Translations under genes and position numbers: made by a program
Shown: positions 37,754 to 39,552 of the stretch, piece by piece
Layout of the letters: each line of letters begins with the position of its first letter
Numbering within the stretch: the stretch's first letter is position 1
Origin: Pyrinomonadaceae bacterium
GTDB lineage: Bacteria; Acidobacteriota; Blastocatellia; Pyrinomonadales; Pyrinomonadaceae
Direction of reading: 5' to 3'
DNA: 64,000 nt
NCBI GenBank assembly: GCA_030841085.1
Contig: JAVEDP010000020.1
Coordinates: 1 to 64,000, forward strand
Notes under the pieces: model-generated
The model's input: the letters and a program-made list of their open reading frames with translations, nothing else
The model's database searches: none
What the model was told of the DNA's origin: nothing

Positions 37754-39232
37754 TTATTGATTCTTCCGCGGACGGCGCCGGCGGATGGGAGTGCGTTCCT
37801 TAAGGAGATCTTTGTGCCGGGTTTCGATAATGTAACAAAGTCCTTGGTAAGTCATGCCCAACAAAGAGGCGGCGTGAGTTACACTGCCGTTCGCCTGACC
37901 CAGGGCCTGCTTGATCATCGCCCGCTCATACGTCAACTTTCTTTCCTGCAAAGCGCTGGGCCTGGTCAAAAGCATTTCTGTCGCTTCTTCCGAACTCAAT
38001 TCTTCAGGCACACTAGCGGCGACCTTTCCAGCGGCATCACCTAGTCTTAGTTTCACTTCCTGACTCTGAGAGGTTGAAAGCCATTCGCGTGCTTGTTGAT
38101 AGGCGGCTTGCAAGGTCGCCGCGGACAGGTGATCTATTTCCTCGATCATCGTGAGCGCAGCGAGTCCGGCAATGTTAAGCGCGTCTATTCTAAGAGCGGT
38201 CTCGATCGCTTCTTGAAATATAAGCTGAGCGCGTTCTCCGCGACCTGATCGCGCTAAGGCAATGCCTTGAGTGATCAAGGCTTCGGCCATCATGCAATTC
38301 TGACCACCCTTTTTGAACGCCTTTACCGCTCTACGTGCGACCGCTTCAGCTTCGTTAAGTTTACCTTCCGCCAGGAAGACTTGCGCCGACGATTCGTCGT
38401 ACTGTGCGGTACGAGCTCTGTCTTTGAAACTAACTGAGAGTCGTCGCGCTTCGTCCAAATATTTGTGCGCCTCCTTAAAGCGAGACAGCTTGTAGAGAAG
38501 GAATCCGACGTTATTCTTTACGTCGGCGCGAAACACAGGATTACGAGCTAATTTGAATTGCCTATCGGCTTCTTGGTATTCAGTGATTGCCCGCTGAAAA
38601 TACTCGTTTTTTTTCTCTGCAGTGCCGAGGTTCCGAAGGATAATCGCAAGTTCACTATGGTAACCGCCTTTGGTTGTGTGGTTCGTTAGTTTCTGAAATA
38701 GAGCTGCGTTGTGATTCAGGAGCTCTAATGCTTCGTGGTATCGCGCGGCTGAACACTCAACGGTCGTCAACTTCAAAAGTGCTCTTGCCCTCGTATGTCC
38801 TGCCGGCGGCAGTTTTTGCAAAGCCTCGCGAAGCATGATCCGCGCTTCATTCAATTCGCCATCGCGCCAATAGCAGTAAGCGATCTCCGTGCGTGCGGCT
38901 GCGATCTGCGTCACGTCTCCGGCTGACTCAAAGTAAGTGATGCTTTCACTGATGAGGTTCTTCGCGATTTCCTGCGCTTCTTTGATCTGATTCGTGCTGC
39001 CGATCCAGCCAGTCAGAATACCGACACACATTAGAACTTCAGCAGCGACTGAAGGATGAAGCCCCTCAATATCCGGCGCTTCGCCTACGCCTCGCCACAG
39101 GCGACCCATCAAGTCCCGAGCGCCCTCATAGTCGCCCTTATCTTTTTGTTCCAACGCGTACTGACACCTGCGCAGAGCTTCGTCGTTCGCTGTTAGGTGG
39201 GCCGTGTGCAGTTTTGGTGAGGCTATCTTCAA
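37754..39232 (-). CDS. TPR protein with C-terminal Fis-type helix-turn-helix
   Basis: The 492-aa protein contains about nine TPR-like helical repeats (residues 25-390; for example RTEIAYCYWRDGELNEARIM and QVFLAEGKLNEAEAVARRAV). It ends in a Fis-type HTH (LTYERAMIKQALGQANGSV, HAASLLGMTYQGLCYIIETR) and a basic tail RRRRPRKNQ. There is no membrane segment or signal peptide, so it is cytosolic. The order (TPR first, HTH last) is the reverse of Gram-positive RRNPP receptors. It is divergently transcribed from a 51-aa exported peptide gene, which suggests that the TPR domain may sense that peptide or its product. That role is inference. Confidence 0.8.
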   Translation of the reverse strand: MKIASPKLHTAHLTANDEALRRCQYALEQKDKGDYEGARDLMGRLWRGVGEAPDIEGLHPSVAAEVLMCVGILTGWIGSTNQIKEAQEIAKNLISESITYFESAGDVTQIAAARTEIAYCYWRDGELNEARIMLREALQKLPPAGHTRARALLKLTTVECSAARYHEALELLNHNAALFQKLTNHTTKGGYHSELAIILRNLGTAEKKNEYFQRAITEYQEADRQFKLARNPVFRADVKNNVGFLLYKLSRFKEAHKYLDEARRLSVSFKDRARTAQYDESSAQVFLAEGKLNEAEAVARRAVKAFKKGGQNCMMAEALITQGIALARSGRGERAQLIFQEAIETALRIDALNIAGLAALTMIEEIDHLSAATLQAAYQQAREWLSTSQSQEVKLRLGDAAGKVAASVPEELSSEEATEMLLTRPSALQERKLTYERAMIKQALGQANGSVTHAASLLGMTYQGLCYIIETRHKDLLKERTPIRRRRPRKNQ

Positions 39233-39284
39233 GCGAGATAAACCTTTTCTCTGTGAGTGTAAGAACCCTTGCTTCCCCGAGCGC

Positions 39285-39363
39285 AGAATACTAGTCCTCG
39301 GTCGCCCTACCCTGCAAGAAGTTTGAGAAATACCCTATTCTAGTTTTGTTACCAGAATTCTTG
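39285..39363. promoter_or_regulatory. Divergent promoter/operator region of the regulator-peptide pair
   Basis: Minus-strand TTGCAG and TAGTAT (39312-39317 and 39288-39293 on the plus strand) with an 18-base spacer form a promoter for the regulator. AGAATA (39286-39291) and TATTCT (39335-39340) are inverted copies. GCAAGAA (39314-39320) and TTCTTGC (39357-39363) are another inverted pair. A weak TTGAGA-N17-TTGTTA reads toward the peptide. The arms are candidate binding sites for the HTH protein. Confidence 0.5.
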
Positions 39364-39396
39364 CATCCTCAAAACTCAAAGAAGGAGAAACAGAAA

Positions 39397-39552
39397 ATGA
39401 AACGCTTTGTATTGGCAATCGCTCTGGCGTGTGCCATTTCAAGTTCCACCTTAGCCGGAGAGGTTCACTCGACTGACGCGCCAGCGCCGCAAGCATCAAG
39501 CTCGGTCGTAACGACCGTGATACTGACGATCATTAGTCTCGTCGCCGGCTAA
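39397..39552 (+). CDS. Small secreted peptide (51 aa) of unknown function
   Basis: The frame begins MKRFVLAIALACAISSS, a compact signal peptide with a likely cleavage site after STLA. After that comes a short polar stretch (GEVHSTDAPAPQ) and a hydrophobic C-terminus (VVTTVILTIISLVAG). GAAGGAGA lies 10-16 bases before ATG 39397, a very good site. It could be a signalling peptide, a small membrane-acting peptide or a leader; sequence alone does not decide. It is the only partner of the divergent TPR-HTH regulator. Confidence 0.7.
   Translation: MKRFVLAIALACAISSSTLAGEVHSTDAPAPQASSSVVTTVILTIISLVAG

Follow-up and report, generated by a model that had tools for sequence, protein, structure and literature searches.

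The window (the whole stretch of 64,000 nucleotides that was analysed, from contig JAVEDP010000020.1 of a Pyrinomonadaceae bacterium) carries a gene for a TPR regulator and, divergent from it, a small gene for a putative exported peptide. The following features were assigned to this locus:

37754..39232, minus strand: receptor/regulator gene, 492 aa, with a TTG start at 39232 (Pfam, AlphaFold2 model, paralogue alignment)
39257..39275, plus strand: operator-like inverted repeat GTGTAAGAACCCTTGCTTC, two mismatches to the motif, close to the regulator start
39289-39294 (plus-strand coordinates): predicted -10 of the regulator, TAGTAT (by eye, paralogue spacing)
39312..39317, no strand assigned: predicted -35 CTGCAA/TTGCAG, common to both divergent promoters (by eye, conserved spacing in paralogues)
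39336-39341, plus strand: predicted -10 of the peptide gene, TATTCT (by eye, paralogue spacing)
39354..39367, plus strand: operator right half-site AGAATTCTTGCATC, kept in paralogous intergenic regions and directly 3' of the predicted peptide -10
39383..39387, plus strand: AGGAG, ribosome-binding site for the peptide gene, about ten bases 5' of the ATG (sequence)
39397..39552, plus strand: exported peptide precursor gene, 51 aa, ATG start (sequence, family alignment, dN/dS)

Five TPR_12 stretches and an HTH_8 (Fis) domain at residues 436-466 were identified in the regulator by Pfam. The AlphaFold2 model is confident (pLDDT 91) and predicts a TPR superhelix at about residues 15-411, followed by a C-terminal Fis-type HTH at about residues 425-480. 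The TTG start is supported by the paralogues, whose start codons align with it (ATG in L037, L039 and L041, TTG in L036). Residues W46, Y121, R123, N240 and N241 show no variation, even when the most distant receptors are included, and the conserved polar residues R123, E159, N241, D279 and E364 repeat along successive A helices of the TPR model. The TPR model matches peptide complexes of the eukaryotic LGN with a Z of about 30 and the pheromone receptors Rap and NprR with Z 24-26; the likeness to Rap and NprR is weak evidence, because TPR superhelices generally resemble one another.

The peptide consists of a predicted signal peptide (residues 1 to about 20), the segment GEVHSTDAP, a linker, and the hydrophobic tail SSVVTTVILTIISLVAG. 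The original prediction had described a TPR protein with a C-terminal Fis HTH, transcribed away from a 51-aa signal-peptide gene that has an excellent ribosome-binding site and ends in a hydrophobic C-terminal tail, and Pfam, the model, the sequence and all eight such pairs of this genome bear this out. It had also stated that no other gene shares the transcripts. This needs correction: an AtuA-family gene begins 150 bases 3' of the peptide gene on the same strand. No terminator was found between the two genes, so that co-transcription with the peptide gene is possible, although no third gene is conserved family-wide. At two related loci, L037 and L128, the region 3' of the peptide gene encodes a membrane protein of 69 aa (MRDPF...GVGQLYNGRILAGILWLI).

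Inverted repeats in the intergenic region, suggested earlier as possible operators, proved to be real. The operator-like motif ATGTAAGAANNYTTGCATC has 47 matches in the own genome, compared with 10 for the reversed control, and each of the five best matches (0-1 mismatch) falls at a peptide promoter of these loci. Half-sites CTTGCAA/TTGCAAG occur in 9 of the 11 close intergenic regions of the window subgroup, where shuffles lead one to expect 0.5; a second count of CTTGCA-type half-sites gave 8/11 versus 0.25. Related groups carry sites as well, with TTGCAAG in 11/18 intergenic regions of the sigma-54 group (0.55 in shuffles) and GATAC...GTATC in 7/11 of the LexA-type group (0 in shuffles). 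An operator search of the own genome yielded no regulon: sites beyond the peptide loci stayed near the control level and formed no coherent gene set. The one -35 shared by both divergent promoters is a prediction from elements called by eye; a strict consensus scan returned no promoter. At G000:C12:286069-287360 the TPR-HTH regulator occurs in broken copies, one of which contains an internal stop; an operator-like site at 287342 is intact, and the locus is apparently a decayed module.

Eight regulator-peptide pairs are present in the own genome, and each of the eight receptors has one or more divergent exported peptides. Seven of the regulators, counting that of the window, are closely related (51-100% identity), and one is distant (41%). 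All 13 matches to the window peptide in this genome lie at the seven close regulator loci, and two own-genome loci carry tandem peptide genes. Relatives were then sampled across the family, which was judged from named relatives to be Pyrinomonadaceae. A divergent small signal-peptide gene was found at 101 of the 108 receptors with enough upstream sequence, so that most homologues of the regulator do have a neighbouring peptide. With a stricter automatic filter, the gene was detected at 85/107 receptors, versus 1/334 control long ORFs at the same loci. At seven receptors the peptide is missing. The exceptions belong mostly to one clade; receptors of the clade formed by L182, L185, L203 and L204, which has no recognisable peptide gene, are possible eavesdroppers or may have lost their partners. 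Across 54 close peptide pairs from elsewhere in the family, dN/dS ranges from 0.15 to 0.66. Judged from these sequences, the peptides are real genes, with the frame kept under purifying selection as the original prediction had required. No third conserved gene (protease, transporter, immunity gene or importer) was found, no single gene being shared by more than 9 of 106 loci.

Named genomes were scanned and yielded 40 related loci, all from Acidobacteriota and many labelled Pyrinomonadaceae. At least one homologue is present in 44 of 60 sampled genomes of the family, with up to nine per genome, the own genome aside. In a sample of the phylum, a TPR-only profile gave nothing comparable beyond the family; its matches there score no more than 117 bits and belong to generic TPR proteins whose length is mostly about 1000 aa. 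By these searches the regulator-peptide family is confined to a single family of Acidobacteriota. A search of the literature available to the analysis gave no match for such a system in Acidobacteria. The window pair is thus not isolated but by homology a member of a large, undescribed, multi-copy family that sets a peptide precursor, frequently with a repeated motif, beside a cytoplasmic TPR sensor joined to several types of output.

The peptides, 51 aa in the window and 50-108 aa among relatives, share a common plan of signal sequence, G-x-I/M-x-T-like motif, linker and hydrophobic tail. By a simple filter, those listed show a basic start, a hydrophobic stretch and an A-x-A/G site. The motif, G-x-I/M-x-T/S/G-x, directly follows the predicted signal-peptidase site. 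A six-residue segment recurs within 54 of 105 peptides, versus 1.8 in shuffles; examples are GNITV x5 (L208), GDLGTD x5 (L209), GDMGTG x4 (L179), GNITSR x5 (L306) and GTITGS x6 (L307). The copies agree in their amino acids, yet 196 of 339 four-fold sites (58%) differ, which indicates that most copies are old and held by selection at the protein level. L303 is an exception, with copies nearly identical at the DNA level. Compared within one gene, copies match at 2.7-2.8 of the four variable positions; swapping them among close paralogues lowers this to 1.2-1.9, and none of 2000 permutations reached the observed value. The simplest reading is that the copies are constrained by something that would read all of them alike and that differs between systems.

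The likely signal is therefore placed, on the basis of the repeats, in the G-x-I/M-x-T-like motif just past the predicted signal-peptidase site, which is repeated and varies between systems. The C-terminal tail was also considered; it is shared between systems and unrepeated, and is a less likely signal than the repeated core. The window peptide holds only one copy of the core, and GEVHSTDAP was assigned as this putative single-copy core from the repeats in the family. Putative peptide sensing by the TPR domain, as first proposed, is now the best explanation, but with the signal likely in this N-terminal core and not in the hydrophobic C-terminus. Core and receptor distances are correlated in a Mantel test (r 0.42), with core boundaries that are imprecise, but the signal sequence correlates more strongly with the receptor (0.62), so that shared descent could explain the correlation of the core.

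Several outputs stand behind the same TPR domain: Fis HTH, HTH-REC, sigma-54 AAA+-HTH, HisKA-HATPase-REC, GGDEF-EAL, and a LexA/CI-type domain. Elsewhere in the family, receptors are as long as about 900 aa, and L166, L179 and L206 combine TPR, AAA+ and Fis HTH. All seven hybrid-kinase variants have repeat peptides. Parsimony places about 19 output changes on the TPR tree, with the peptide retained. As annotated, the constant pair is the TPR domain and the peptide only, and the output varies. In the L212-L222 subgroup, a Phage_CI_repr HTH gene (PF07022) adjoins the peptide and the TPR protein has a LexA/CI-type C-terminal domain (Z 11.7), as at L219:2079-2687 and L219:3967-4446; this is apparently a CI-like repressor divided between two genes and supplemented by a TPR sensor. 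At L302:4706-7450 and L304:5532-8336, the TPR hybrid kinase has as its neighbour a further long TPR protein, which carries an OmpR-type DNA-binding domain (Trans_reg_C) at its N-terminus.

The exported peptide could instead be an effector (antimicrobial, adhesive or envelope-related) that the TPR protein regulates in response to some other signal, with the repeats serving the effector. Its signal sequence and conserved amphipathic tail, e.g., TEIALNLLQSVLSLF, could act on membranes, and operator-like sites do lie at the peptide promoter. The pairing, however, is kept with outputs that are not themselves DNA-binding, namely hybrid kinases and GGDEF-EAL proteins; a receptor-ligand relation would account for a peptide gene beside a hybrid kinase or a c-di-GMP enzyme, and a plain regulator-target relation would not easily do so. 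Moreover, the core is identical within a gene and different between close paralogues, as for a recognised ligand, and neither an immunity gene nor a transporter is conserved nearby. We consider an effector role unlikely.

We propose that the locus is probably a peptide-signalling module, in which a secreted and often multi-copy ligand is read by a cytoplasmic TPR receptor. The small gene would encode a Sec-exported precursor. Removal of the signal peptide, with further cuts where copies repeat, would release a peptide of about 6-9 residues starting with G-x-I/M-x-T, which would re-enter the cytoplasm through an oligopeptide importer; three oligopeptide-binding proteins (SBP_bac_5) are encoded in the own genome. 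The returned peptide would bind the groove of the N-terminal TPR superhelix and alter the output domain. In the window, this output is a Fis-type HTH, which may bind the intergenic inverted repeats of CTTGCA type and control both the peptide gene and itself. Through export, cleavage, re-import and TPR binding, the module would act as a private peptide channel. We infer the export, processing, import and binding, as well as the sign of regulation and a role in cell density.

Alternatively, the TPR domain may bind the precursor inside the producer before export, and the module would then monitor secretion or its own synthesis. Such a role is favoured by the common ability of TPR domains to bind unfolded segments, and by the lack of a dedicated importer conserved at these loci. 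Binding before export would, however, leave unexplained why the copies follow the signal-peptidase site, why they multiplied, and why the core diversified between paralogues. This alternative appears more doubtful still than an effector role, and signalling by a secreted ligand remains the preferred reading.

In Firmicutes and their phages, cytoplasmic TPR receptors are known to read secreted peptides (PMC9765709). As in the RRNPP(A) systems of Firmicutes (Rap-Phr, NprR-NprX, PlcR-PapR and AimR-AimP), a small propeptide, here predicted to be exported, is encoded beside a cytoplasmic TPR protein, several paralogues occur per genome, propeptides contain repeated identical cores, and propeptide genes are at times in tandem (PMC9765709, PMC5199041). 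Multi-copy propeptides and tandem propeptide genes are described for Rap-Phr, and multi-copy propeptides for NprR (PMC9765709, PMC5199041); RRNPP propeptides hold up to six copies (PMC9765709). The propeptide of 51 aa and the receptor of 492 aa fall within the RRNPP ranges of 10-100 aa and 250-500 aa, the receptor has TPR repeats, and the propeptide gene is its direct neighbour. An RRNPP survey dropped clusters with an N-terminal TPR region (PMC10075063), and the present arrangement would thus have escaped it.

In RRNPP proteins the TPR region is C-terminal and the HTH, if any, N-terminal, whereas in the window protein HTH_8 at 436-466 stands behind the TPR, as the original prediction had recognised together with the Gram-negative host, Acidobacteriota instead of Firmicutes. 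The outputs here are Fis, REC, sigma-54, kinase, GGDEF-EAL or LexA/CI. Known RRNPP pheromones usually sit at the C-terminus of the precursor, whereas the candidate signal here lies directly past the signal peptide, N-terminal in the mature part, and the hydrophobic tail is conserved. A conventional RRNPP system acquired from Firmicutes would fit the agreement of this locus with most published RRNPP criteria (PMC10075063), but it is very improbable given the N-terminal TPR and C-terminal Fis HTH, the confinement of the family to one acidobacterial family, and the sequence comparisons: RRNPP family models gave no match for the window protein, and Pfam and NCBIfam gave only generic TPR and HTH models. 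The system is not filed as an RRNPP member because domain order, family sequence match and host all disagree, although it probably works like RRNPP quorum sensing.

Other known regulators share parts of this architecture. MalT-type regulators also have a sensor TPR ahead of a C-terminal HTH, and the TPR fold matches MalT domain III with Z 20.8; the window protein differs in having no STAND ATPase module, a Fis-type instead of a LuxR-type HTH, and a paired peptide gene. Family members with TPR, AAA+ and Fis HTH resemble sigma-54 activators of the NtrC/NifA type, whereas the window protein has no AAA+ module and its sensor is a TPR domain with a linked peptide gene. One subgroup resembles LexA and lambda CI repressors in its LexA/CI-type C-terminal domain beside a Phage_CI_repr HTH gene, but there the DNA-binding and C-terminal domains are encoded by different genes, and a TPR sensor with a repeat peptide is attached.

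We lean towards regarding these systems as a new pheromone class of Gram-negative Acidobacteriota. An N-terminal TPR sensor of one bacterial family would serve six or more output types (transcription, receiver-linked transcription, sigma-54 activation, phosphorelay, c-di-GMP and CI-type repression), each with its own diversified and often multi-copy precursor, giving up to about nine private channels per genome. If true, the same logic would exist with an unrelated architecture in Gram-negative soil bacteria, and the principle would have arisen more than once. It would also provide candidate communication systems for Acidobacteriota and raise the testable question of how the peptide passes two membranes. 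The approximately 100 natural receptor-core pairs make ligand specificity directly testable.
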